Position numbers and translations under genes: made by a program | Notes under the pieces: model-generated | The model's database searches: none | What the model was told of the DNA's origin: nothing | What the model saw: only the letters and a program-made list of their open reading frames with translations | Part shown: positions 166-53,200 of the stretch, piece by piece | Position numbering within the stretch: position 1 is the stretch's first letter | How the letters are laid out: each line of letters opens with the position of its first letter | Source: an uncultured bacterium | Lineage (GTDB): Bacteria; Patescibacteriota; Gracilibacteria; Absconditabacterales; Absconditicoccaceae | Direction of reading: 5' to 3' | Length of the DNA stretch: 55,954 bases | Assembly (NCBI GenBank): GCA_903904875.1 | Contig: CAIVEC010000013.1 | Coordinates: 1-55,954, forward strand

Positions 166-2607
166 CTAGTCTCCCCTCGCCACCATTTTAATAAACACGT
201 CACTCGGCACGTTGACTGAGCCTATGGCTTTCATTTTCTTTTTTCCTTCTTTCTGCTTGGCGAGAAGCTTCCTTTTCCTGGTCACATCTCAACCGTAACA
301 TTTCGCGATGACGTCTTTGCGCATCGCGGCGATATTCTCTCTGGCGATCATCTTATTGCCGATACCCGCTTGCAATGGAATGACGAACAGATGTTTCGGA
401 ATCAGTGTTTTGAGTTTTTCCACGACTTCCTTTCATAAATAATACGATTTATCTTTGTGGATGACCCGGCTTAACGGCTCGACTTTCTCGTTGTTGATAT
501 ACACGTCTAATTTCACTAAGTCTGCTGGCTGATATTTCTTGAATTCGTAATTCATCGTCGCGTAGCCTTTGGTCGCGGATTTCAACCTATCGTAGAAATC
601 TATGATGATCTCGCCCATCGGCAACTCGTAATGCCGTACGACTCTCGTTTCGTCGATATAATCCATATTGATCAATCTGCCTCTGTATTCCTGGCAGAGC
701 GCCATGATATTCCCTGCGTATTCCTGCGGTCAGACGACTTCCACGGCCGCTATCGGTTCCCGTATCTCGTCTATCAATCACTGGTCTATCATATCCGATC
801 AGGATTTCACCACTAGCCAAGGCTTTAATAAGTTTTGAGTGTTAAGTGTTAAGTTTTGAGTATCCAATCCTCATTCTGCATTCTGAATTTTGAATTCATC
901 ATTCGTCAGGATTTGTCTGTATAATCAGGTTTTGAGAAGAATCTGGATATTGGATCAGGATTTGATTTGGTCTAGAGAAAGATTCTTGGTCTTGATCAGA
1001 TATACAACTGTCGGTATCGTGAAAATCGTCTCCATATTATATTCCCTGGACAATCTTTCCTTGACGATATCCATATGCAGCATACCTAAAAATCCGCAGC
1101 GGAAACCGAATCCGAGCGCTTTGGAATCTTCCAGTTCGTATTCTATCGCGCTATCGTTGATGGATAATTTTTCCAAACTATCTTTCAATTTATCGTAATC
1201 GTTCGTATCTATAGGATACACTCCCGCATACACGAACGGCTTCACTTTCTTAAATCCCGGGATTACCAATGAAAGCAACTGAGGATTTTTTTCTGAAGAT
1301 CCTTGTAATCATCAGAGTATGGTATCTCAGATCTGGACGTCTCTAACTGATTTTTGACCGGTAACTATATATCCTATCTGCCCTTCTTTGACGACCTTAT
1401 CGGCCTTGTATTCCGGCGTGAAATGACCGACTTCCGGAGGATTGAATGTATTTTCCGAATGGATCAAATGAACCTCCTCCCCTGCCTTTATCTCGCCATC
1501 CACGACTTTGACGTATGCTAACACGCCTTTGTATTGATCGTACACGGAGTCGAAGATAAGCGCTCTGGAAAGATTTTTTCCTCACCCCTGACCCTCTCCT
1601 TCAGAGAGGGAGTTTCATATCTCTATTTTTTTTAGTACTTTTTCTAAATCATTGAAAATATCTTCGTTTTTAAATCTTAATACTTTATATCATAGATGTT
1701 CCAATGTTCTATTTTTTTCATTGTCAATTTTTTTCTGTTTTTCAGTGTTGTGAATTCCTCAGTCAATTTCTATAATAATCTTATGTTCATGACAATAAAA
1801 GTCAGCGATGTATTTATTGATGGGAAATTGTCTTCTTCGTTTCATTCATACAAAATTTCTATTTCTCAAAACTTCTCGCATTATTTCTTCTGCTGCTGTC
1901 TGATTCTTTCTCATATCTCTTGCAAATCCGGTCTGGAATCATCAGGCTTCTCAGTAAATATGATGCTTTTTATATACTTCATGCACTATATTCTGCAACT
2001 CTCCTTCTCTGAAGGAGAAGGAGTTGGAGGATGAGGAGGTCGGCCAATATTTCTTTGGATGGGATTTTTTGAATGCTAATGGATCCTGTATCCTCTCTAT
2101 GATAGCGTCCAGAATCGTATCGACGTTTTCTCAGGTCTTGGCTGATATCTGAATGATCTCTGATTTATCGATGCCGATGACATTCTCTATCTCGTGCGCC
2201 ACTCTTTCAGGATTAGCTGCCGGCAGATCGATTTTGTTCAATACCGGGATTATCGTTAAATGCTGGTCTATGGCTTGATATAACGTTGATAATGTCTGCG
2301 CTTGTATTCATTGGCTTGCGTCGACGAGCAAAATAGCTCACTCTACGGCTGCGAGCGAACGGGAGACTTCGTACTGGAAATCAACGTGTCCCGGAGTATC
2401 TATCAGATTGAATTCATAGCCTTTCCGCTGCATCCTTGCAGGCGTCAATTTGATGGTGATTCCTCTTTCCTGCTCGATATCCATGCGGTCGAGCATCTGC
2501 GCGTGATCGATTTTCCTGACGGTTCAGGTAAGCTCCAGCATCCTATCTGCCAGCGTCGATTTTCCGTGATCTATGTGTGCTATGATGCAAAAGTTTCTAA
2601 TCTGCAT
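166..2607 (-). CDS. lepA: Elongation factor 4 (LepA) with two in-frame insertions
   Basis: This is the ribosome back-translocating GTPase EF4, a soluble translation factor. With TGA as Gly the frame is open for 813 codons and contains about 23 TGA codons. The N-terminus has the G1 motif [10 protein letters not shown], then DTPGHVDF and NKIDLP. Domains II to V follow ([24 protein letters not shown]), and the C-terminus has the typical [21 protein letters not shown] tail region. The family is usually about 600 aa. The excess comes from about 160 residues inserted at roughly residues 190-345, between the GTPase domain and domain II, which contain a DUF559-like nuclease, and from about 25-45 residues near residue 570 made of an intergenic repeat. 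The start ATG at 2607 matches the family N-terminus. It ends in TAG. Whether the inserted protein still works is unknown. Confidence 0.95.
831..900. repeat. R5 AT-rich repeat inserted in frame in lepA
   Basis: The segment is built of TTAAGTTTTGAGTG and CATTCTGAATTTTGAATTC units like those found between genes at 22296-22341 and 52488-52520. It adds residues such as [19 protein letters not shown] to LepA at a place where relatives have only a short loop. The frame is preserved. Confidence 0.65.
1580..2037 (-). mobile_element. R1-flanked DUF559-type nuclease insertion within lepA
   Basis: R1 repeat units at 1580-1613 and 1996-2037 bracket a segment that stays in the lepA reading frame. It encodes a DUF559/Vsr-like endonuclease domain. 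Visible signatures are an [13 protein letters not shown] helix, [17 protein letters not shown], and the catalytic core KIIIEIDGGIH of the PD-(D/E)xK type, followed by [16 protein letters not shown]. No intein splice motifs (N-terminal Cys/Ser, C-terminal HN plus Cys/Ser) are seen at the edges, so the domain probably remains in the LepA polypeptide. The DUF559 assignment comes from recognised family motifs. Mobility is inferred from the repeat-bracketed structure. Confidence 0.75.
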
Positions 2608-4176: not shown

Positions 4177-4227
4177 TGTAGGATGACTCAAATAGGCTCC
4201 ATAAGATTATAATACGATATAAAACAA

Positions 4228-4716
4228 GTTACAGGGAACAGGTTGAAGGGAGCAGGAAAATAACCTCTGACTAATTACATTATTTTATTTTTTTGATAAA
4301 CGCATAAATCATTTTGCTTATTGATATACATTGTGAATATGATTCACTATACTGCTGTTGTGACACGTATCATAATTTTAATCCAAAATACAGCATATTT
4401 CTTACTTCTCAACATGATCATTTTGTAATTCGTAAAAATCTTTGTTTTTCTTTTATGGTTTGTCTTTCATATCACTCGGAGATGTTATTAGCTATTGAAA
4501 TACTAGCTCTCTGTAATTGATCTTTGAATCCAAAATCTTTTATTTCTTTACAAATCTTATAAGCATCCAAGATTAGCTTTTCTGTCATTTTCCATATTTC
4601 TAAATCTTCAAATTGCATATAGCATATATTAAATATTTAAATGATATCAGGAGCAGGTTCTAGGGAGCAAGGAGCAGAAAAAAATCTGTAACCTGTAACT
4701 TGTAACCTGTGAACAA
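4228..4716. mobile_element. R3-bracketed four-helix-bundle cassette
   Basis: R3 units flank the S23-like gene on both sides in mirrored order. GTTACAGG...GGGAGCAGG stands at 4228-4262. GGAGCAGG...GGGAGCAAGGAGCAG followed by CTGTAACCTGTAACTTG stands at 4648-4716, so the outer ends are inverted. Empty R3 units occur at 18671-18731 and in frame within rimO at 45441-45501. Interpretation as a mobile cassette is inference. Confidence 0.55.
4280..4618 (-). CDS. S23-type four-helix bundle protein
   Basis: A 112-residue protein of the 23S rRNA intervening-sequence/S23 four-helix-bundle family. Seen motifs are an N-terminal FEDLEIWKM, QLQRASISIANNISEG (Gly from TGA), FLRITKGSCGEVRNML and LKLGYVS, in the order and spacing of the family. 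Family members are pentameric helical bundles of unclear role, often encoded in rRNA intervening sequences and related to Avd proteins of diversity-generating retroelements. It is bracketed by inverted R3 repeats, with no operon partners. The first ATG is the start and it ends in TAA. A second, diverged copy lies at 7324-7677. Confidence 0.85.
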
Positions 4717-4719
4717 TAG

Positions 4720-5097
4720 TTATAATTTAAGTTTCATTATTTTTTTCAGTACCTCACTTCGTTTCTGTTTGCCTGTATAACTGATAGGCAATGCTAATTC
4801 CTCGAATAATCTGAGCAGTTTCTTTGCTACTTTGAGTTTACCAAACATAATATCATGATAGAGCATATCGTAGAGCTGGATGCAAAACGTATTTATCATC
4901 CTGATATCCTGTGTCTCTTTTTTTACGTTTTTTATCATCTGCAGGAGAAACTTTGAAATATCCTGCTGCTGTTGTTTACGAAACAATGCAAAGATTTTCT
5001 TTTTCTGGGGCATATTTTTATGCAATACCTGGAAAATTTCCATGGTGCTGGTGATGATAAAAATATTATACCGACTGCTTTCGAAATTTGTAATCAT
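4720..5097 (-). CDS. Hypothetical protein
   Basis: An unrecognised 125-residue basic protein rich in Lys, Gln and Ile, with no TGA glycines and no signal peptide. The reading frame stays open upstream to 5207. It passes through one TGA and encodes a plausible segment (RPPKEFVFINYFGCETYTGD) with no ATG, so the true start may be a non-ATG codon further upstream. The stop lies four bases from the end of the R3 repeat. Function unknown. 5208-5391 contains no gene and only AT-rich sequence. Confidence 0.55.
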   Translation of the reverse strand: MITNFESSRYNIFIITSTMEIFQVLHKNMPQKKKIFALFRKQQQQDISKFLLQMIKNVKKETQDIRMINTFCIQLYDMLYHDIMFGKLKVAKKLLRLFEELALPISYTGKQKRSEVLKKIMKLKL

Positions 5098-5391
5098 TTC
5101 ACTTCATTCGTGCTTACATTTTCTCAAGTCGCCGGTATAAGTCTCACATCCAAAATAATTTATAAAAACAAATTCTTTTGGTGGTCGACTATACGCTCCT
5201 GTTTCTATTTATAGTAAAAAAGAAAAAAACTGACAAAAGTAGGACAAATTCTACACCAGTCCTGAAGCTGATTTTGGAAGTTGAACTTTATGTATTTAAA
5301 TTTATTTCTGTAACTTGTATATTCTCCTTCAAAAATATTTTTTATTTTTGATTGAAGAATATACAACTCAATCAATCAAAAAAACCTCGTT

Positions 5392-7254: not shown

Positions 7255-7760
7255 GTGTTTCGTTTCTTGCTTTCACGACGTCTCAGATTGCTTCAGGTCG
7301 TTTCAGGTAGCGTCAGATTGTTATTAATCTTTGAGCACTTTTATAAAATTACTTATTTTTGTTCATAGACTCAAACATTTATCTTTTAATTCTTCAAATT
7401 GCTTTGTTGTAATATATCAAAAAATATGTGCAGAATATAGCATACTTCTTACTTCTCATGTGGATCATTTTGAATAATAGAGAAATTTTATAAAATCTTT
7501 ATTTGATCATCTTTCGTTACCTTCAGCAATATTGTTTGCTATAGATATACACGCTCTCATAATTTGGTCCTGAAAACTCCAATTTCTAAAATCTTTATTA
7601 TAAAAAATTATTCACAAGTCGTTTATTAGTTCTTGTGCAAGTTCTCGAATTTTTAGTTCCTCAAATCTTTTTCCCATTTTCGCTTATAGAGCTAAATATA
7701 CAACAATCTGTATCTATCTGTAACGTGAGCGGAGCGAACTTGAGTCAATCTGTAGCAAAA
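7255..7760. mobile_element. R2-bracketed four-helix-bundle cassette
   Basis: R2 units at 7255-7320 (ending CAGATTGTT) and 7690-7760 (starting AACAATCTG) flank the S23-like gene in inverted orientation. Empty R2 elements of similar sequence occur elsewhere in the window. The right arm abuts the 3' end of ruvA. Mobility is inferred, not shown. Confidence 0.55.
7324..7677 (-). CDS. S23-type four-helix bundle protein
   Basis: A 117-residue member of the same family as the gene at 4280-4618. Conserved blocks are FEELKIRELAQELI, QIMRACISIANNIAEGNER, KFLYYSKGSTGEVRSML and FGYITTKQFEEL. Two glycines in the third block are TGA codons. The two copies share the fold signature but differ widely in sequence and in flanking repeats (R2 here, R3 there), so this is not a recent duplication. 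It starts at the first ATG and stops in TAA. No neighbour suggests a function. Confidence 0.85.
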
Positions 7761-8317: not shown

Positions 8318-8775
8318 ACTTTATCACTACCATAATAAAAAGCTTCAGATTGCAACAGATCGTCTCATATTGCCTCAGGTTGCTGTAATATTACAACAAT
8401 CTGGAACAATCTGTGACGTCCGCTTAAGCGGACTTGAATCTATCTGTAGCGAATTGATGTTTATATAGTCATTTCCTATGTTTTTTCAATGAGTTTTTGG
8501 GTTGATATTGAATGATAAATTATTATTCTCTTCCTGTCATTGGACTATCAGTGATTATTTTTTATTTGTTATTGCTGAATAGTACAAATACCAAAAAAGA
8601 ACCATAGCTTTGGTAAACTATAGTCCTTTTCTGTCGCTTTTATTAAAGCGTACGGCTTCACTACACAAGTATATTATACATATTTTGTAATAAATGTCAA
8701 ATATCTTACAAAATACTATCATTTTACATTAAATACCGCTTATAAACTAGCTTTTACCCTATTTTTTGGCCTTCT
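8318..8775. other. Intergenic region with R2 element, upstream of rpoD
   Basis: Holds an R2 element at 8341-8456 with the palindrome GTCCGCTTAAGCGGAC, then AT-rich DNA with a small CGCTTT/AAAGCG hairpin near 8635-8650 that could be part of the rpoD leader. No RNA gene or ORF is recognised. Confidence 0.6.
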
Positions 8776-10085: not shown

Positions 10086-11987
<1,902 letters not shown>

Positions 11988-11989
11988 AA

Positions 11990-12117
11990 AACTAATGAAA
12001 AATTAAGAATTAATAATGAATAATGTATGAATTGTACAATTATAGACTATTGTAATCTACAATAGTTCATACTATAGCAAAATCCGACATTATTCATTTT
12101 TCATTATTCGTTAAAAA
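11990..12117. repeat. R4 MITE-like inverted repeat
   Basis: About 130 bases with AATGAAAAATT...AATGAATAATG at one end and CATTATTCATTTTTCATTATTC at the other. The conserved core is ACTATTGTAAT...ACAATAGTTCAT. Copies with the same ends and core lie at 22752-22886 and 47503-47630, and a related one at 52488-52620. Confidence 0.75.
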
Positions 12118-13612: not shown

Positions 13613-13641
13613 TGACTTCTATTATAATATAATTATATGTA
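13613..13641 (+). promoter_or_regulatory. Promoter of the four-paralog array
   Basis: TTGACT (13613-13618) and TATGTA (13636-13641) with a 17-base spacer, divergent from the TPR gene promoter. Between it and the ATG lies the leader AATTTTTACCTTATAAGC that recurs before the next two paralogs. Confidence 0.5.
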
Positions 13642-13677
13642 TGCTATTGTAATTTTTACCTTATAAGCATTATCACC

Positions 13678-14112
13678 ATGGGAGGAAGTAAGGACTGATC
13701 AGAAAATTTACAGAATAACCAAACAAATACTATTTCAAAGACCGAAAGCGTGGAAGAATTATCAGCTATGGCGATCAAAAATAACTTTTTGATGTTACAA
13801 AAAGAATTTCTTCAAAAAAATTGGGACTCTATCTGTAAATACTCTCCTGTAATCAAATCGTTATTGGAAATACCCGAATTACAGGACATCAAATTAGATA
13901 ATATAAGCATGATTAGTGACAAAAAACATATGATTGAAAATTATTTATTTATAGAAACCTCTATAGATTATGATGGAAATCTCTATCAATTTTTATTAGG
14001 CAAAGGGTTCTCCACTGAAATCATACAACCGACTATTAGATCAAATCTTGATGCGGGAATATTATTTTGCTATAAGGATTTCCAGTTATTTCTCAAACAA
14101 GAAAATATATAA
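13678..14112 (+). CDS. Array paralog A (MGGSKD family)
   Basis: A 144-residue protein of an unrecognised family that occurs four times in tandem here. The N-terminus MGGSKDGSENL is almost invariant among the copies. It is followed by a low-complexity Asn/Thr/Lys linker, then a domain with LLMLQKE-like helices, an LLEIPELQDIKLDNI motif and a C-terminal FLKQENI. Copies B, C and D carry Cys in place of Ser at position 4. There is no signal peptide. The start is fixed by the shared leader CACCATGGGAGGA. One TGA glycine is present near the N-terminus. Confidence 0.8.
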
Positions 14113-14143
14113 TTATAATTTTTACCTTATAAACATTATCACC

Positions 14144-14590
14144 ATGGGAGGATGTAAGGATCTTTTATGATGAAATCAATTAAGAAATGAAAAGAATACT
14201 ACTGATTCACAGACACATAAATCAGCTGATGAAATCATAGCTAATCTTTTGATGTTACAAAAAGAACTTGATCAAGAAACTTGGAAGAGTATTTGCGAAA
14301 ATACTGATGCTAAATTATTATTGGAAATACCGGAATTTCAAAAAAATCTTACTATAGATAGAATAGAACACATAAAAAGTGTTTTCCATTGAGAAATTGG
14401 TCATTTACATGTATACGCTTCTGCGTTTAAGAAAGGAAAAGACGATCTTTTTGATCTAGTATTAAGTAAATTTCCTGCAGAGACAATACAACCCATATTT
14501 TCCAAACATGGTGGTTTCAATCCTCCATATGACGGAGTAGAAATTTCTTTCAAAAATGAAAAAATCTTTGTTCGTATCAAACAAAAATAA
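14144..14590 (+). CDS. Array paralog B (MGGCKD family)
   Basis: A 148-residue paralog starting MGGCKDLLGG, with a Thr/Ser linker, LLMLQKELDQETWKSICE, LLLEIPEFQKN and a C-terminal FVRIKQK. It is the most diverged in the central part (HGEIGHLHVYASAFKK). It lies 31 bases after copy A and is preceded by the same TTTTTACCTTATAAACATTATCACC leader type. Three glycines are TGA. The conserved Cys4 is not preceded by a hydrophobic signal, so a lipoprotein is unlikely. Function unknown. Confidence 0.78.
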
Positions 14591-14627
14591 CTATCATCAT
14601 AATTTTTACCTTATAAATATTATTACC

Positions 14628-15098
14628 ATGGGAGGATGTAAAGACTGATCAGAAAATCTAAAAGATGAAACATCAGAAAATCAAGAAACAGGTATAAATA
14701 AGATACAAAGAAAATCTACAAAAGAAGTCAGAGAGAATTTCCAATCTTTAAATAAGGAACTCTTGCAGAAAAATCTAGAACTTCTTGTAAAGGTGGATCC
14801 TAACATCAAAAAAATCTCAGAGATACCCGAATTACAGGATCTCAGATTGGAAAGGATTGATGTGTATGGGAACCATAGATTACGGATAGACTGATCAACA
14901 AGTTTTGATGGAAATCTCCGCCAGCTCTTATTGAAGCATGGATTCAATAAAAATCAATTAGTATCAGATACATGAGCGACAGCAAAAGCTGAAGAAAAAT
15001 TAACAGGAAATAAACAGATACCAAAAATTTGAGTAAGAATATGCTTATATTGATCATCTCTCCAAATTTCCATAAAACAAGAAACCCTATCCAAGTAA
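14628..15098 (+). CDS. Array paralog C (MGGCKD family)
   Basis: A 156-residue paralog starting MGGCKDGSENLKDETSE. Shared blocks are a KSTKEVRENFQSLNKELLQKNL helix, ISEIPELQDLRLERIDV, a strand RIDGSTSFDGNLRQLLLKHGF and a C-terminal ISIKQE. It is closest to copy D, with which it shares the ST(K)E...DGNLRQLL blocks almost residue for residue. Glycines are encoded by several TGAs. It is followed by a copied piece of the elp3 3' end and a terminator. Confidence 0.78.
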
Positions 15099-15130
15099 TT
15101 TTTTGATCATATAGCTTCACTCGAGCTTGT
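15097..15130. repeat. Copied 3' end of elp3 behind paralog C
   Basis: The run CATATAGCTTCACTCGAGCTT directly after paralog C is identical to the last codons of the real elp3 at 15659-15691, read in the same orientation relative to the paralog. It marks the array unit as paralog plus convergent elp3 tail. Confidence 0.8.
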
Positions 15131-15156
15131 AAAAACACCTGAAGACCGGTGTTTTT
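15131..15156 (+). terminator. Rho-independent terminator after paralog C
   Basis: AAAAACACC / GGTGTTTTT stem with a GAAGA-type loop followed by T-rich sequence. Confidence 0.8.
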
Positions 15157-15223
15157 CTTTTATTGACTTTTTATTTCAAATATATAAATATGAGATTAAA
15201 TTTACTTATTAACATCTATCACC

Positions 15224-15658
15224 ATGGGAGGATGTAAGGACTGACTAGAAAATCTAAAGAACGATACAACCAAAAAACATGAAACAGGCACCGATAAGAT
15301 AAAGAAAAAATCTACAAAAGAAATTCATGAGAATCTCGAATTATTGAAAAAATGATTATTAGAGCATAATCTAAAATATCTCGTACAAAAAGACCCTAAT
15401 ATAAGAAAAATTATTGAGCTGCCTGAATTGCAGGATTTTAAAATGAAAGACATCGATACAGATTTCGACTTCATAACCATACACTGATCAACGGACTTTA
15501 ATTGAAATCTTCGCCAACTCCTAATAAAAAACTGATTTAACAAAAACAATGTGTCCATCCTACGTGATAGTCGTTGAGCGCTTGAAAAATGAATACATAT
15601 AACTTTTTATTGATCGTGTCTTAGAGTAAATATCAAACAAGAAAAATTATCATCATAA
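15224..15658 (+). CDS. Array paralog D (MGGCKD family)
   Basis: A 144-residue paralog starting MGGCKDGLENLKNDTTK, very similar in layout to copy C (KSTKEIHENLELLKKG, IIELPELQDFKMKDID, ITIHGSTDFNGNLRQLLIKNGF, VNIKQEKLSS). Nine or so glycines are TGA. It lies 125 bases after copy C, with its own leader. Its 3' end overlaps the convergent elp3 stop by 12 bases, an arrangement that explains why copy C is trailed by an elp3 fragment. Confidence 0.78.
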
Positions 15659-17500
15659 TTTCTTGACCATATAGCTTCACTCGAGCTTATACCCTAGCTT
15701 TCTGTAATACGCTCTGACTCAGATGCCGGAGATAACGGAAAGCTTTTTGTATTTGTGTCATTGAGAAATCTGCTCAGCTATTTCCATAAGCTGTTTACCG
15801 AATCACTTGTGCTGAACCTTATCACTATTTTTTTTCTTCTTTTCTAATCACTCCATTTGTCCGTAGACATGTAATTCTCTAATTATCGCTGTTTGTTTTC
15901 CTAATCACGGAATCTGTATCGTATCTTTTTCATTAGGCAATAAGAGTCTTGTGAACCCGTATAAATATCCTAACTGATCTTCACAACTAATAAAATATTC
16001 CACTCCTCCACTACTCATATATTTTCTTATTATCAAATTCGTTCATTCATTTTTCATTTTTCATTTTTCATTTTTCATTCTGTTCCTGATTTCGCGGCTT
16101 CTCGTATCCAAAGAAACAAAATTTCTGAACGATTTCACGTCCGGTTGTTTTCCGACAATGATTGTCTGGATTTCATCATTTTTTCTAACGATTTTTCCCA
16201 GTTCTTCTTTGAGCGCTTTTTGCAGAGACGTGTATAACGAATATTTTCAGTATAATCTTTGGTAAAACTTTTTTCGTTCCGTTGGTTTACTTTTTTGTTC
16301 CTGCAGCAACTGATTGTGCATGAGTTGTGAAAGATTTGTTATCGTGCTTCATGCAACGATCTCATTTGCAGGAATATCGCGGATCAAACGCTTGATTCTT
16401 GTATATGGAGGAATGACGGTCAAAAAAGTTACTCTGATAAGTTTTTTGATATCGCTGGTTTCTAGCGGTGTATATTTTCCTTGGTTGTAGAGTCTGCAAA
16501 GTTGAGTATTGGGAATGACGGACGTAGGATAGAATTTGATTTCATCCGGTTTGAAAAATGGGTCTGTATATAAATTTTTAAATGTTAATACATCTTTAGC
16601 GTAATCAGAGCCGTAAAGTCCTGGCATTACATGCAAACAAAATTTGAAGCCGTATTGCCTAAGCTTATGACAGGCTTCACGCGCTTGCTGGACGGTATGC
16701 CCTCTTTTATTCAGCTTTAAAACATTCTCGTCCAATGACTGCACTCACATCTCGATCCTCGTCACTCCGAGTTCGCGTCGGAATTGGCAGTTCTCATCAG
16801 TCACGTATTCCGGTCTTGTTTCTATCGTCAGTCAGATGATTCTATGCGCTGCGCTTTCATTTGTTTTCAATGCTTCAGTAATATTGTTTGAATATTTTAT
16901 TTTTTTATTCTTATCTACTATCGCGTGAGAATATTTTTTGGTCGTAGAAATTTTGATGTTCTTGAAATATTCGTCGAAGGTATTGCAGGCATCGTAGAGC
17001 TCCTTGATGAATTTCGTCTTATACGCTTTCGTGTAGACGTCGAAGGTTCATCAGAGAACGATCATCTCTATCTTGTCGGTTTCATGACCGGTTAATGTGA
17101 GTGAAAGCAATCTATTGTAGACTTGTTTGATCGGATCGAATTTATTGAGCAATGCTCTCATGGCGCCCGGCTCGGATTTGATATAGCTCTTTGGCATGGT
17201 CGGATCGTTGGGACAGAAAATGCATTGGCCGGGACACGGAAATGGTTTGGTCAGCACTTGAATTGCTACAATTCATGAACCAGATCTGATTGCTTTTTTT
17301 TTGAGCAACTGCTCTATCTGTGGATCTTTGGTGATTTTCTTGGTTTTCAACAGTTCGTAATAGGCTTGAAGCAATTGGATATTCGATGGTATATCGGCTA
17401 ATTTATTTGTTTTAGCAAAATCCCTCTTGAGACTGGTAAGAAGGTCAAGATTACGGTCCTGGGGTTTGGTTTTGACTAATTGTACGATGATTTTTTTCAT
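15647..17500 (-). CDS. elp3: Elp3-like tRNA uridine C5 carboxymethyl synthase
   Basis: A 617-residue radical SAM plus acetyltransferase protein of the Elp3 family. It modifies the wobble U34 of tRNA using acetyl-CoA and SAM. The iron-sulfur motif is PCPGQCIFCPNDP. It is followed by MPKSY and EPGAMRALLNKFDP, then IETRPEYV and RIEMGVQSLDENVL. The C-terminal GNAT domain has GYLYGFTRLLLP, HKGFGKQLM and the end block YYRKLGYKLEGSYMVKKL. It contains a short in-frame insertion (MKNEKGKMKNE) at about residues 473-488 made of R4-type repeat DNA. Start ATG at 17500. Bacterial members are uncommon outside some lineages. Confidence 0.93.
16036..16080. repeat. R4-end type insertion within elp3
   Basis: Tandem CATTTTTCATTTTTCATT units identical to the terminal sequence of R4 elements interrupt elp3 in frame just before the conserved acetyltransferase strand. 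Confidence 0.65.
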
Positions 17501-18670: not shown

Positions 18671-18731
18671 ACAAGTTACAGGTTTCAGGTTACAAGTTTC
18701 TTTCATCTTGCTCCTTGCTCCCTGCTCCTTG
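18671..18731. repeat. R3 element without cargo
   Basis: GTTACAGGTTTCAGGTTACA followed by GCTCCTTGCTCCCTGCTCC. This has the two arms of R3 seen around the four-helix gene at 4280-4618, here with no gene between them. Confidence 0.7.
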
Positions 18732-22342: not shown

Positions 22343-22747
22343 ATGACCTGATATATCGTTATAGCTGCGCTTGCTGGTGGACTGATAGGATACTTTATCT
22401 TCTATCTCAGATATCAGCATAAGGATACCGTCAACCAGCTCAGATCCAATCTCAAGGATGCAGCCAAAGAGATACAATATCTCAGCGGTGAACTCGATGA
22501 ATACGTCCAGCAGAATGCACTCTTGAAACAGAAGACAACGGAATTGCTGGAAAAAAACGATGACCTTTCTGATGTGGTTGCTGAATTAAGCAAATATTAT
22601 GTGCACTTGAAGAAAGCTGCTGAAAAGACGACCGAGCTCAGTAAATATCTTCATACGCCGAATCCGGATATAGAAGAAAAAATGCAACCATTTCTGGAGA
22701 AAGCCAAAGAGAAAGTGAATGAAGAGACCAATAAGACGTTCTTCTAA
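22343..22747 (+). CDS. Membrane-anchored coiled-coil protein
   Basis: A 134-residue protein. One N-terminal transmembrane helix (YIVIAALAGGLIGYFIFYL) is followed by a long heptad-rich coiled coil (QLRSNLKDAAKEIQYLSGEL...ALLKQKTTELLEKNDDL). The pattern resembles small inner-membrane structural or division-associated proteins, but no family is recognised. The ATG at 22343 follows an R5 repeat (22296-22341). Gly codons include TGA in MTGYIV. Confidence 0.72.
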
Positions 22748-22751
22748 AAAT

Positions 22752-22886
22752 CAATGAAAAACTAATAATGAAAAACTAAAAACGTAGGAATTGTGCTATT
22801 ACAAACTACTGTAATATACGATAATCCATAATAAAACAAGTCATTCATTTTTCACTATTCACTTTTCATTATTCATTAGTATTTCA
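22752..22886. repeat. R4 MITE-like inverted repeat
   Basis: AATGAAAAACTAATAATGAAAAAC at the left and CATTTTTCACTATTCACTTTTC at the right, with the core ACTGTAATATACG between. It ends immediately before the methyltransferase ATG. Confidence 0.7.
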
Positions 22887-22887
22887 A

Positions 22888-23526
22888 ATGTCCTACAATC
22901 AAAAGCATATCCTGATCCATGACCCGAAGACAGGATACAACACTATAGCCGACCAATACGGCGCTTATCACAAACACCTTGATAGTTTCGAAAAAGGTGT
23001 TTTTGTTAAATTCTTACCAAGAGGAAAGGAAAACTTGCATATCATAGATCTCGGTGCCGGCGACGGCAGGCTGCATAAATTCCTTGCACCGTTGAAACCG
23101 TCAAGATACGTCGCCTGCGATATTGCTGAGAAATTATTGAAAAGGCATCCCCTCCACGGCGGACAGGCTGGCACGAATGTAGAGAAGGTGGTCTGCGATT
23201 TGGAAGACACGCTCCCCTTCGATGATGAGTCTTTTGATGTTGCAACTAGTTTTTTCGTGTTAGAACATATCGAAGACATAGATAGCTTATTCGGTGAAGT
23301 CTATAGGATATTGAAATCGTGATGAATATGGATTATCGGACATTTCATCCAGAGACGTGAATTCATCCGGAAAAAAAATAAGGATCAGTTCAGAATAAAA
23401 TTCTTCAATCACAGGATACAGGACTTGGAAAAACTCCTTACCAAGAATTTTTTTTATCTCCATGTTTTACCTATCCGCGAGGAAGGGAACATCATAGGAC
23501 ATATCCTTGTTTGTAAGAAAGTATAG
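22888..23526 (+). CDS. SAM-dependent methyltransferase
   Basis: A 212-residue class I (Rossmann-type) methyltransferase. Motif I is IIDLGAGDGRLHKF, followed by YVACDIAEKLL, then VVCDLEDTLPFDDESFDVATSFFVLEHI and LFGEVYRILKSGG, which are the usual motif II-III and post-III blocks of the Methyltransf_11 type. The substrate cannot be told. The start abuts an R4 repeat. The C-terminal part (RIQDLEKLLTKNFF, EGNIIGHILVCKK) is a typical strand 6/7. It lies upstream of metG. Confidence 0.88.
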
Positions 23527-32621: not shown

Positions 32622-32822
32622 ATGCTTATAAATGATTTATTAGATCTAGAAGATCTTATTACTATGAACGCTGACGATGATGCTGGCGATGATGATGCTG
32701 GTGATGACGCTGGTGATACTGACGATGATGCTGGCGATGATGATGCCGGTGATGACGCTGGTGATACTGACGATGATGCTGGTGATGATGACGCTGGTGA
32801 TGACGCTGGTGACGCTGTATAA
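32622..32822 (+). CDS. Acidic repeat peptide, candidate modification substrate
   Basis: A 66-residue ORF with a short non-repetitive N-terminus (MLINDLLDLEDLITMNAD), then four or so imperfect copies of DDAGDDDAGDDAGDT built on a 48-base DNA repeat, ending DAGDAV. It has no Lys, Arg or aromatic residues in the repeat. It sits between the DUF1704 peptidase and the ATP-grasp ligase and is followed at once by its own terminator. Leader plus Asp/Thr-rich repetitive core is reminiscent of graspetide precursors, but a calcium-binding or purely repetitive peptide is equally possible. No homolog is recognised. Glycines are GGT/GGC. Confidence 0.5.
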   Translation: MLINDLLDLEDLITMNADDDAGDDDAGDDAGDTDDDAGDDDAGDDAGDTDDDAGDDDAGDDAGDAV

Positions 32823-32843
32823 TAGACAAACCTATTACTATAT

Positions 32844-43602: not shown

Positions 43603-45156
43603 ATGTTTCAATTACAATCATCATATAAACCAGCCGGAGATCAGATCAAAGCCATCGAGCAGATCAAGAAGCTTTTTGAAAGCGGAAAAAATAAGGCTAC
43701 CCTACTCTGAGCGACAGGAACCGGAAAGACGTTTACCATGGCGAATATGATCCAGCATTTACAGAAACCGACATTAATCATTTCACACAATAAAACACTT
43801 GCTGCGCAGCTTGCAACGGAGTTCAAGTATTTTTTCCCGAACAACGCCGTGCATTATTTTGTTTCCTATTTTGATTATTACCAGCCGGAAAGCTATCTGC
43901 CGGACCAATGATTATATATAGAGAAAGAAGCTACCATCAATCAGGAAATCGAGATGTACAGACTAGCAACCATGGCTTCATTGCTTACGAGGAAAGATGT
44001 GATAGTAGTAGCGTCAGCGTCTTCGCTCTACGGTCTCGGACAGAAGAGATTCTTCGAAGAAAACTGTCTGCAATTCGAAGTAGGCAAGCAATACAAGTTC
44101 CGTGAACTTAAAAAGCAGCTTCTCCATATGCAATATAAACCTATTGTTTCCAAGATAGAACACGGAATGTTTGAATTCAAATGAGATATTCTGGATATCT
44201 TTTCCAGTACGGAGAAATTCGTGTACAGATTGCATTTCAACGAAGAAGTGCTTGAATTGATCGAACTGAAAGATTCATTAACCTTTGAACATAAAGAAAA
44301 TAAGAATAAAGTGACGCTTCGGCCAGCGACGCAATTCTTGCAGGACGTCTCAGATCTGGATACCATCTTGGAACAGATGAACGCTGAAAAAGAGCTCAGA
44401 GTGAAGGAATTTGAGAAACAATGAATGCTTGTGGAAGCTGAAAGGATAAAGAAAAGGGTGGAATACGATATCAGGATGATCAAGGAAACAGGATTCGTGA
44501 ATGGAATTGAAAATTACTCATTATATTTTGACAACAGACTTCCTGGTGAACCGCCAAACACGATTTTCGATTATTTCCCGGACGATTTTCTATTGATCAT
44601 CGATGAATCGCATATGACATTACCACAGTTGAGAGCCATGCCAGGAGGTGATAGATCAAGAAAAGCGAATCTTATAAAATACGGTTTCAGACTTCCTTCA
44701 GCGGTCGATCATAGACCACTCAGATTCGAAGAGCTTGAAGGAATTTTGGGCTGGAAAGATCTGAAAGATATCGTCCTAGATCAAGCATTTGATATTAATT
44801 CGAATGTATCGAATACGCACGTAGAAATCTTCAATAAATATAAGAAGATGAAAGAAGCGCGTGGAGAAAATCAGTTGATCACGTTGGTCAAAAAGCATAA
44901 AAAAGACGCGAAATCCATTTTCTTGTCTGCTACACCTGCCGAATACGAGCTGAAATTATCCGACAAAATCGTGGAACAGATCATCAGACCGACATGATTG
45001 TTGGATCCGATTACCTACGTCTATCCAAAATCAGGAAACTACGATTCACTCATCCTCAGTCTGGAAACATTGATGAAGAAAAAGCCTCATCTCAAGGAAT
45101 TCATGAAATGATATTCACTGAAAGATGGTATAGAGGAAGTGTTTAGCAATGACTAA
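43603..45156 (+). CDS. uvrB: UvrB, truncated before the C-terminal helicase domain
   Basis: A 517-residue excision-repair UvrB lacking its usual C-terminal third. Present are the Q-motif and Walker A ([16 protein letters not shown]), [19 protein letters not shown], the beta-hairpin region [23 protein letters not shown] box [33 protein letters not shown] and motif [14 protein letters not shown]. After [14 protein letters not shown] the frame runs about 40 more residues and stops in TAA. Helicase motifs IV-VI and the UVR UvrC-binding domain (normally to about 670 residues) are missing. rimO begins 4 bases later. It may be inactive or need a split partner. Confidence 0.9.
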
Positions 45157-45160
45157 ATAT

Positions 45161-46594
45161 ATGCAAAATATACTAAACTTTTCACTGATAAACTTGTGAT
45201 GTACCAAAAACCTGGTAGACAGCCAGTATTTTCTTGGTCGTCTTTTTGATATGAGTTTGAAGACACCCGAATATCAGTTGAACTATTTTACGGATCCGTT
45301 CGATAAGAAAACTGAAATAGTTTTCGTGAATACCTGTGCGTTCATTTCTTCAGGAAGAGACGAAGCTGAAGAAACCGTGAAGAAACTTTTGAAAGTGAAG
45401 AAAACTGTTTACCTTATGGGCTGTGCAGTACAGTATTACAAGAAGTTACAGGGAGCAAGGAGCAAGGAGCAGGAACCTGCAACCTGGAACCTGCAACCTA
45501 GTTCTCTTCACTATCTTTCACGAGGTGATATGAACAAGGTGAATCTGAAAAATATTATGCAATGATATGACAGCAAAATCTTTGGAAATTTTGAATTCGG
45601 CAAAGGACCAAGAGTATATACCAACATCGAACAAAAGTTTGAATATCTCAAAATCGCTGAATGATGTGACAATCATTGCACCTTCTGTATCATTCCGAAA
45701 CTCAGAGGAAGACAAAAATCATTGCCGATAAAGAAAATCGTTGCTGAAGCGAAGCAGATGATCGTGAATGGAATCCAGGAGATAATTTTGATAGCGCAGG
45801 ATACGACAAGATATTGAACTGACATATATTGAAAACCAAAGTTACTGGAATTGCTGAAAAAGTTGGATGCAATAAAGTGAAATTTTACCTATAGACTTCT
45901 CTACCTGTATCCGGACATTGTCACGCTAAATCAAGTCAAGGAGATGAAAAAATTGAAAAAGTTCATACCGTATTTCGATATCCCATTGCAACATATAAGT
46001 TCGAATGTCCTGAAAAAAATGGGAAGATTCTATGATGAAGAATATATAAAAGAATTTTTGGATCAGATCAAAAGATCCTTTCCCAGCAGATTCATCAGGA
46101 CGAATCTCATCATCGGATTCCCCGGCGAGACGAAGAATGATTTTGAAAAATTACTGAAGTTCGTAGACGAAACGAAGTTTGATAATATAGCGCTTTTTGA
46201 ATATCATGACGAGCCTTTGGCTGCTTCCAGCAAATTAGCGAATAAAGTCGATGGCCATGAAATCAGAACGAGATTCACCAAGATCAGACAGCTTGTGAAT
46301 AAACAATTATTGGAAAGCGGAAATGCAAGAAAGTGAAAACAGGAAATCGGTTATATCATGGAAATTAGTTCCCCCACCCTTAATCCCTCCCCATTACATG
46401 GAGAGGGAAATAAGAAATCACCCCTCTCTAAGAATTGGAGAGGGGCCGGGGGTGAGGAAACTCTCGTCGTAAGGCCACGATTACATTGTCCGGAAATCGA
46501 TAGCTACGATGAAATTCCTATCAAAAATGTCATAGGGAGCTTCGAGAGCAAAAATGAGTTGGAAATAGGCGATAAAATCATATATTCAGTGTAA
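45161..46594 (+). CDS. rimO: RimO-like ribosomal S12 methylthiotransferase with two in-frame insertions
   Basis: A 477-residue radical SAM methylthiotransferase that modifies Asp of ribosomal protein uS12. The MTTase domain has [19 protein letters not shown] (Gly by TGA), [12 protein letters not shown] and LMGCAVQYY, supplying three cysteines. The radical SAM site is [17 protein letters not shown], followed by AQDTTRYGTDIYG and RLLYLYPD, which are RimO rather than MiaB signatures. Two repeat-derived segments are inserted in frame: R3 DNA at residues about 94-114 and R1 DNA at about 401-434 in the TRAM domain. The start ATG at 45161 comes 4 bases after uvrB. Confidence 0.93.
45441..45501. repeat. 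R3 element inserted in frame in rimO
   Basis: GTTACAGGGAGCAAGGAGCA followed by GGAACCTGCAACCTGGAACC encodes [15 protein letters not shown] inside the methylthiotransferase domain, directly after the third cluster cysteine region. Confidence 0.75.
46363..46461. repeat. R1 element inserted in frame in rimO
   Basis: Two R1 hairpin units (CCCTCCCC...GGAGAGGG and CCCCTCTCT...AGAGAGGGG-like, ending GGGGGTGAGGA) encode [15 protein letters not shown] and GAGGEE inside the TRAM domain. The frame is preserved. Confidence 0.8.
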
Positions 46595-46621: not shown

Positions 46622-47497
46622 ATGCCACTTACACCCGAGCTTCAAAGCATCGTGGATGCATTTCAGAACGAGAAAATCGTAGCGTTGCTCGCACCGAGTT
46701 TTCCGGTGGATTTCTCCTATCCGGAGATCATCATCAACCTCAAGATGCTCGGCATCCAGAAAGTAGTCGAACTCACCTATGCAGCCAAATTGATCGATGA
46801 GGAATATGAGAAGATACTCAAAGCGAATCCCGACAAGCAATATATCTGTCCGAACTGCCCTACTATCGTCATGATGATAAACGCGAAATATCCGGAACTC
46901 AAGGAATATATCATCAATGTTGCTTCGCCCATGGTCGTCATGAACAGGTTCGTAAAGAAGGAATACGGACCAGACTACAAGACCATATTCATAGGACCGT
47001 GTCTGGCGAAGAAAATGGAAGCGAAACACTACGATATAGATTATGCGATAACGTTCAAAGAGTTACAAGACATCTTCGATTATAACAAAGAGAATAATAT
47101 CGCTCCGAAAGAATTCACCTATTCCGTGACCGAAGACGGTACGCCGGATTTCGATAAGTTCTACAACGATTATACAAAAGTCTATCCGCTTGCAGGAGGC
47201 GTTGCTACAACCATACATATCAAAGGCGTAGTTCAGAAAGAACAAGTCATCATAGCTGACGGACCTGCAAATCTCGATGCAGCATTCCAGGAATTCAAGA
47301 ACAACAAGAATATCAGGTTCCTCGATATCCTCGCCTGCGAGTGATGATGCATCGGCGGTCCCGGCATGATGTCCAAAGCGCCGTTGGAAGAGAAGAAACA
47401 GAGAGTCTTAGCCTACAAGCAATACTGCAGAAAAGATAAGATATGATCCAAATTCGGCAAGTTCGAATACGCCGAAGGCTTAGACATAACTAGATAA
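46622..47497 (+). CDS. [FeFe]-hydrogenase large-subunit C-terminal-like protein
   Basis: A 291-residue protein matching the iron-only hydrogenase large-subunit catalytic domain. P1-like YICPNCPTIVMMINAKYPEL is followed by VASPMVVMNR, P2 TIFIGPCLAKKMEAKHYDIDY and P3-like FLDILACEGGCIGGPGMMSK. The N-terminal ferredoxin clusters are absent. P1 has CPNCP instead of TSCCP, so it is either a divergent hydrogenase, an NARF/Nar1-like cluster carrier or a sensor. TGA codons fall in EGGC and near the C-terminus. Start ATG 27 bases after rimO, same strand. Real H2 chemistry is not established from sequence. Confidence 0.8.
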
Positions 47498-47502
47498 ATT
47501 TA

Positions 47503-47630
47503 ATGAAAAATTAAAAAATTAATAATGAATAATGTTGGTATTGTATACTTATTAGCTATTGTAAAATTACAATAGTCCATTAGTTTAAACAAATCCTACA
47601 TTTTTCATTTTTCACTATTCATTATTCATT
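47503..47630. repeat. R4 MITE-like inverted repeat
   Basis: TTAATGAAAAATTAAAAAAT at the left end, core GCTATTGTAAAATTACAATAGTCCAT, and CATTTTTCATTTTTCACTATT at the right, ending at the next ATG. Confidence 0.75.
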
Positions 47631-48791
47631 ATGTTGAGTTTATATATCCACATCCCCTTCTGTGCAAGCAAATGCGCCTATTGCTCCTTCAATAGCATGC
47701 CGATAGATTTTTCCGATACGCTGATTGATGAATATATCGAAGCATTAAAAAAAGAGATCGATCATTATGCTGATACCATAGAAGATAAACAATTGAAAAC
47801 CTTATATATCTGATGATGAACTCCGAGCAGGATCTGATCATCAAGGATCATCGACATCATCGAACATATCAGGACCAATTTCGATTTCGAAGAACTGGCG
47901 GAAATGAGCATCGAATTGAATCCGTATCCTGAAGAAGAGGTTTTGAACTTCGTACAGGATCTGAATAAAAAATATAATAAGATCTCCAGACTGAGATACA
48001 GTTTCGGTATCCAGAGTTTCGACGACGAAGTCTTGAAGATAACAGGAAGAGCGTATAATTTTTCCAGCATTGTTGAGTTTCTAAGAGCATTGAGCAAGTA
48101 CAAGCAGGAAAATAATGTATTTAATTTCGATTTCATCGCCTTCGGAAAATTCCAGGTCAGCAAGAATGGATTCAAACAGCTCCGGCATGAATTCAAACGC
48201 GACTTCTTCCAGAACTTCCTCGCTAGCTGATTCGCTGACAGTATCTCTTTATATACCCTAGAAAACATCAAAGACAAGCTATGTCCGAAAATCTATTTCG
48301 GGACTGACGAAGAGATCATGGAAGAATTTCTGATCCTGAAAGAGATGGTCGAGAATGAATGATTCGCAAGATATGAAATATCGAATTTTGCTCATGCCGG
48401 CAAAGCATCAATCCACAATATGGTCTACCGGAATATGGAACCGTATATCTGATTATGACTCTCAGCCTCATCGTTCTTCGGTAACAAAAGATGGACGAAT
48501 ACGTGAGATATCAAGCAGTATATTCAAGGAGAACGGATCGATAAAAAAGCAGTCCAAGTATTGAATGAATCAGATCTATTGATTGAAGAATTTTTTCTCA
48601 GACTGAGAACCAGAGAAGGAATCGCCGACATCAACAAATTTATTTCTGTCCTTGTTCCGAACCACGAATCATTGTTAAAAAATTACAAAAATGAATGACT
48701 AATCCTTTTTGACTGAACTAAATTACAGCTTACCGATGAAGGGATGAACGTATATAATTCCATAATCACGGATTTATTGATAAAAATATAA
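47631..48791 (+). CDS. HemW-like radical SAM protein
   Basis: A 386-residue coproporphyrinogen-III-oxidase-family radical SAM protein. The cluster motif is SLYIHIPFCASKCAYCSF (CxxxCxYC). GGGTPSRIG follows, then SIELNPYPEEE and the RYSFGIQSFDDEVLKITGRA block, close to the HemW/HemN family (Q-S-F-x-x-x-x-L-x-x-x-x-R). YEISNFAHAGKASIHNMVYR is the typical E-N-F-x-x-H/N region. HemW relatives are haem chaperones; a haem pathway is not visible in this window. Start ATG abuts an R4 element. It ends in TAA and converges on a minus-strand terminator. Confidence 0.9.
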
Positions 48792-53082: not shown

Positions 53083-53200
53083 GCAGATTGCCACATGTCC
53101 CGATAAATCGGGACGCCTCATATTGTTACAGATTGTAGTAATATTACGACAACCTGTAGCTATCTGAAGCAACCTGAAACAATCTGAGACGAATATCTAC
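53083..53200. repeat. R2 element
   Basis: CAGATTGCCACATG...TATTGTTACAGATTGTAGTAATATTACGACAACCTG and CAATCTGAGACG, with the small palindrome CCCGATAAATCGGG. It fills most of the gap 53043-53242, with no gene. Confidence 0.75.

Follow-up and report, generated by a model that had tools for sequence, protein, structure and literature searches.

What is a gene for an S23 (23S_rRNA_IVP) protein doing between two inverted arrays of heptamers, in an intergenic position outside any rRNA gene? The locus that raises this question lies in the window, the 55,954-nucleotide stretch of DNA analysed here, which is contig C13 of a 966-kb draft genome in 49 contigs and whose genes are open only if TGA is read as glycine (code 25), a code that suggests an organism of the Gracilibacteria type. 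From the evidence set out below, we consider that the locus is probably a copy of a widespread mobile element of about 400-500 bp, composed of an S23 gene and inverted arrays of 7-10-nt units, and similar in its organization to the REP-RAYT systems.

The S23 genes and repeats of the genome

The gene in question, S23#1, occupies positions 4280-4618 on the minus strand and specifies a protein of 112 amino acids; its reading frame exists only under code 25, with four TGA codons read as Gly. The product scores well above the cut-offs for TIGR02436 and for PF05635 (107.4 bits), the only Pfam family that it matches, and it has relatives with solved structures (2GSC, 2RLD). The earlier note had described the gene as enclosed by arms of a repeat, R3, in opposite order, and this was confirmed: GTTACAGG is found at 4228 and CTGTAAC at 4686 and 4693, and the segments 4224-4244 and 4683-4703 form an inverted pair of 21 nt with 86% complementarity. 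The arms had also been placed correctly, while their symmetry is not quite as described, the right one (4650-4712, plus strand) being a complete R3 unit of GGAGCAG-type heptamers, a spacer and CTGTAAC-type heptamers, and the left one (4228-4258, plus strand) a half unit with the heptamers GTTACAG, GGAACAG, GTTGAAG and GGAGCAG. Judged by the empty site in a congener (G002), the element extends over 4226-4720, give or take a few nt. Considered without the other loci, its inverted pair is no more than moderately improbable; the score was equalled in 44 of 5000 shuffles, and a similar score is reached at two other genes of the window. What makes the bracketing convincing is that all the S23 genes of the genome, and those of several phyla, agree with it.

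A PF05635 search of the genome recovered six S23 genes, one of them carrying a TAA stop. As had been predicted, all six are flanked by inverted repeats; these are closely placed arrays of short units, with a different motif for each gene (GTTACAG/GGAGCAG, the 10-mer R2, an AAACG type, AATGAAA/AACGAAT, GTGCTAA, and a AATTTAGA type). Thus S23#2, which also lies in the window (7324-7677, minus strand; 117 amino acids under code 25; PF05635, 89 bits), stands between arms of R2 10-mers on the plus strand, CGTCTCAGATTG... at 7278-7321 and ACAACAATCTGTATCTATCTGTAACG... at 7697-7758. The accompanying prediction, that the flanking repeat family also occurs empty, held for five of the six genes, whose arm types (R3, R2, the AAACG type, the D4/AATGAAA type and the AATTTAGA type) were all found in gene-less copies. 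For R3 there are about 17 copies elsewhere in the genome (E<0.01). They include both of the empty units reported earlier, at 18671-18731 and in rimO (45149-46594), where the unit forms an in-frame insert at 45443-45499 on the plus strand; the same cut-off adds some 15 more genome-wide. Gene-less R2 units are located at 2652-2759, 8361-8419 (palindromic) and 53111-53192.

The D4 element (22757-22878, plus strand) is about 125 bp long and possesses AATGAAA-type arms and a conserved gene-less core. About 25 distinct copies exist in the genome, those in the window falling at 11987-12113, 22740-22890 and 47496-47631. D4 is nearly palindromic, its heptamer arms enclosing a conserved hairpin (AACTATTGT..ACAATAGTCCAT), and a copy on contig C19 combines the same core with different arms (GTGCTAA).

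Several other features of the window were recorded. A second in-frame insert in rimO (46380-46470) is an R1-type hairpin with a 31-residue translation. Dispersed repeats at 5064-5194 (about 130 bp) and 5315-5363 (about 48 bp), the latter a hairpin (CTTCAAAAATATTTTTTATTTTTGATTGAAG), have tens of matches in the genus. Positions 32659-32823 hold a degenerate tandem array of 48 bp (CTGACGATGATG...) with no evident gene, and 13627-15690 four small paralogous genes in tandem, which start with MGGSKDG or MGGCKDG and have conserved upstream sequence.

S23 flanks in other phyla and the flanks of other small genes

Eighty S23 loci from Patescibacteria, Bacteroidota, Ignavibacteria, Spirochaetes and other groups were surveyed, 78 of them usable for scoring. 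They share a layout of 5' (GTTTATAAA)-like units, the gene, and 3' (TTTATAAAC)-like units, and the arrays often begin at the stop codon of the upstream gene and end at the next start. Scored as inverted flanks, the 78 S23 loci had a median of 43.5; 164 neighbouring genes gave 21, and pairing the left flank of one S23 locus with the right flank of another gave 27. Arms were also compared within genomes, using 64 S23 loci from the genome of the window and its relatives: the left arm had a median score of 37 against its own right arm and of 20.5 against those belonging to the other copies of that genome (p~1e-22), and at 47 of the 64 loci its own right arm was the best match within the genome. 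The arms are, in other words, self-complementary and specific to the copy. On cyanobacterial plasmids they consist of classical G-rich heptamers, for example AGGGAGT, GGGAACA and GTCAGAA. Poor or direct-repeat arms were seen at a few S23 genes (L079, L086, L198). In Brumimicrobium (L079 and L086), ACTTGATA arrays lie on both sides of S23 in direct, not inverted, orientation; the two S23 proteins are 96% identical despite a dS >1.

In the class-mates of the organism, all gene families were treated identically and inverted flanks were counted at a score of at least 30. Such flanks were present at 23 of 25 S23 genes, 16 of 25 DUF559 genes and 5 of 26 GIY-YIG genes, and at none of 25 ParE control genes, so that the association of S23 and DUF559 genes with repeats, as suggested in the earlier note, goes beyond chance. 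The neighbouring-gene, mismatched-pair, same-genome and ParE controls likewise show that the S23 arms are not fully explained by chance or base composition. The type of repeat differs between the three cargo families, the arms of DUF559 being of the R1 type (CCTCACCCC...CCCTCTCC...GAGAGGG) and those of GIY-YIG of the type GTCATTCC...GGAATCC or GTCATCCTGA. These results support the general idea of a hairpin repeat with a family-specific cargo gene, with one amendment: the arms are copy- or clade-specific, which rules out a single fixed repeat family for each cargo family.

The two DUF559 matches in the genome represent one lepA insertion, present in two near-identical contigs. In the window, the frame of lepA (166-2607, minus strand, code 25) stays open across the DUF559/R1 insert at about 1581-2025. 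The DUF559 domain (1621-1932, minus strand; PF04480, 100.3 bits) is in frame within lepA between R1 repeats, with one arm (CCTCACCCCTGACCCTCTCCTTCAGAGAGGGAG) at 1581-1613 on the plus strand (about 1461-1493 of L008). The lepA of contig C16 (L007) is near-identical and has this insert too, plus one extra R1 copy, indicating that the draft genome mixes two strains.

Filled and empty sites, rRNA and the alternatives

Among congeners, G002 and G006 lack the element at the S23#1 site, the junction in G002 being clean, and G008 retains a relic there. At a second site in the genus (genus site 2), G006 and G008 have an S23 element and G001 and G002 are clean, with no arms, a distribution that can also be read as ancestral presence followed by precise losses. 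At genus site 1, one and the same gap contains, depending on the species, an S23 element, gene-less heptamer hairpins, or D4 or R1-type repeats. Finished plasmids resolve such pairs more sharply. In those of Nostoc, the empty allele of site X reads GGTTCTAG-GTT-ATG, and the site is filled in three plasmids by a whole S23 unit with the target of about 5-6 bp (TTCTA) at both ends; this duplication lies in register with the heptamer. At site Y the S23 unit splits the overlapping stop-start TAATG. Further filled/empty pairs were found at Nostoc site Z, at nrdB/nrdA, and at cas10/cmr3 in Picosynechococcus PCC 7003 versus 7002. No arms are present at the empty Nostoc sites X and Y; arms and gene are therefore gained or lost as one. 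Across the compared sites no target-site duplication was constant, the picture beyond site X not being clear, and no transposition event was observed. On the Nostoc plasmid pNsp_c (L421, 1165-1424), a gene-less GGGAACA hairpin stands where related plasmids have an S23 element or nothing. In the cyanobacterial plasmids L402, L400 and L404, S23 elements are located inside CRISPR operons (cas10/cmr3, cas6/cas4), with no sign of belonging to the defence system.

The different hairpins found in the one gap of genus site 1 would be expected if S23 genes inserted into pre-existing, independent heptamer hairpins of the STRR or REP kind, the arms being a target site and no part of an element. The abundance of R3, R2 and D4 hairpins without S23, and the resemblance of the arms at one locus (L003) to the D4 family, also fit such a history. 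We nevertheless regard it as unlikely, both from the lack of arms at empty Nostoc X and Y and genus site 2 and because the arm motif tracks the S23 protein clade across phyla. Over 103 elements, the similarity of the S23 proteins predicts that of the arm 5-mers (rho 0.55; maximum of 500 permutations 0.19), and the value is again 0.55 when CPR hosts are compared only with non-CPR hosts (permutation maximum 0.25). No such relation was seen within single genomes (rho -0.06, 43 pairs), and joint inheritance of arms and gene could therefore account for part of the covariation.

Only two of the roughly 170 S23 loci examined were found with rRNA. In a class-mate (L172), S23 has 16S-like sequence on both sides (SSU match), and in Azospirillum (L410) it lies inside the 23S rRNA gene (Rfam RF02541) and shows the anatomy seen elsewhere, with heptamer arms GACGGATGACAGAGGACGGAGGACAGA and their mirror. 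In the intervening sequence (IVS) of Coxiella, tandem GACAGAT heptamers precede S23p and a 28-bp terminal stem is cut by RNase III (PMC4990558); among CPR bacteria, 23S_rRNA_IVP ORFs are scattered across several rRNA insertion sites (PMC11270868). The S23-encoding IVS of Coxiella and Leptospira thus resemble our loci in having a PF05635 protein within inverted termini, with heptamers upstream in Coxiella. They differ in location, since the window copy and nearly all the examined loci lie in protein operons or between genes, and the latter add copy-specific arms and gene-less hairpin relatives, features that the papers found do not report for IVS. From the Azospirillum and class-mate loci, the heptamers and stem of Coxiella, and the scattered ORFs of CPR, the sequence comparison suggests that S23 rRNA IVS are best regarded as one particular form of an S23 mobile element that is widespread and has mostly escaped notice.

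The Coxiella stem also lends itself to another explanation, at the level of RNA, in which the arms form an RNase III stem that excises the S23 RNA from a polycistronic transcript, mobility being secondary. The similar arms around S23 in 23S rRNA and the S23 unit adjoining 16S sequence would agree with this, as would orientation: between co-directional genes, S23 lies in sense in 64 of 66 and 33 of 38 cases (97 of 104 together). Of 95 elements, 79 have the G-rich strand in the 5' (left) arm and 16 do not. However, arm mismatches on the sense strand show no excess of G.U over A.C (343 versus 389), nor is the sense-strand duplex stronger. The lack of a G.U excess means that the complementarity is not specially RNA-like and looks DNA-like, and it rules out selection on sense-strand RNA structure of the arms. 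Since some S23 elements moreover possess a complete hairpin at one end or at both, and not one closing stem, we think it improbable that the arms serve chiefly for excision.

Orthologous S23 pairs have dN/dS values of 0.02-0.12, which indicates purifying selection, and orthologous elements retain the same arms for long times. Ongoing concerted evolution of the arms after insertion was ruled out, cross-species arm scores being about equal to within-species scores. The long retention of arms, together with the conservation of S23, is also compatible with a gene useful to the host. S23 might then be an ordinary host gene with a conserved cellular role, decorated with regulatory or terminator-like hairpins; its low dN/dS, its place in operons, its sense orientation and its vertical persistence over long times at some sites would all be in keeping with this. 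Such a gene would not be expected to be as patchy as S23, which is present in 51 of 99 relatives with up to 13 copies per genome, to leave pseudogenes, relics and filled/empty sites, to occur in rRNA, or to have copy-specific arms that are absent from control genes, and we consider this explanation distinctly unlikely. Hairpin density showed no clear difference between S23-rich and S23-free genomes in a small sampling (twenty 20-kb samples). Least credible by far is control of S23, in the manner of a type III toxin-antitoxin system or another regulatory pair, by an RNA made from the tandem repeats directly upstream of this small conserved gene, given that the mirror-image downstream array, the 7-10-nt unit, the dispersed gene-less hairpins and the rRNA insertion are all unexpected for it and that S23 has no match in the PADLOC defence library; the PHROGs phage families gave no match either.

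S23 as a proposed partner of hairpin repeats

Understood as a mobile element, the S23 gene with its arms is most similar to REP/REPIN-RAYT (TnpA-REP), with which it shares inverted hairpin flanks, a cognate repeat for each gene clade, gene-less copies and vertical persistence; the cognate relation between RAYT gene clades and REP classes has been described (PMC3686654). The differences are that S23 is a four-helix bundle lacking the HUH/Y1 nuclease, and that its arms, by inspection, are arrays of 7-10-mers without the GTAG/GTGG tag at the foot of the palindrome. A second likeness is to the STRR/heptanucleotide repeats of cyanobacteria, the S23 arms of Nostoc and Calothrix being such arrays (AGGGAGT, GGGAACA, GTCAGAA, GGGTGTA). 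Xanthomonas, which has 70-75 inverted pairs of the heptamer GGGAATC (PMC4692102), also has an S23 protein (2GSC, XCC0516); neither a linked gene nor a link to mobile elements has been reported for the heptamer repeats of Xanthomonas and Nostoc (PMC4692102). Unlike MITEs and DNA transposons, S23 elements have arms that vary by copy, without fixed shared terminal inverted repeats, and no constant target-site duplication. Avd of the diversity-generating retroelements (DGR) is a related four-helix-bundle pentamer and binds RNA.

We propose that each S23 protein works together with the hairpin repeats cognate to it, perhaps by binding to the arms. The gene-less hairpins, such as R3 and R2, would be non-autonomous copies or remnants of the element. 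The element would enter transcription units in sense, as a rule where one gene stops and the next starts, and now and then within rRNA; expression of S23 would probably be by read-through from the host operon, which fits the sense orientation at gene junctions. Since we know of no catalytic domain in S23, the element probably depends for its movement on host enzymes of replication or repair, which may copy or insert it in a folded, single-stranded form as DNA or RNA. More tentatively, these elements may represent a new class of minimal mobile element, in which a structural four-helix bundle that binds RNA or DNA, without nuclease, transposase or reverse transcriptase (RT), spreads its cognate low-complexity hairpin arrays, the heptamer repeats known for long; the class would form part of a larger group in which small proteins unrelated to one another (S23, DUF559 and GIY-YIG) each have a repeat class of their own. 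We would put this at somewhat less than an even chance. A literature search that took in few subscription journals and no preprints returned no account of S23 genes that lie outside rRNA between inverted arrays differing by copy, and no paper linking S23 to heptamer repeats.

For the S23 family, which has been known since the first rRNA IVS but lacks an assigned function, such an element would provide a setting for tests, and the mobility itself is directly testable in the filled/empty pairs of culturable Nostoc and Picosynechococcus. The heptamer repeats of cyanobacteria and Xanthomonas would gain a candidate partner gene, and the rRNA IVS would become one landing site of a general element.
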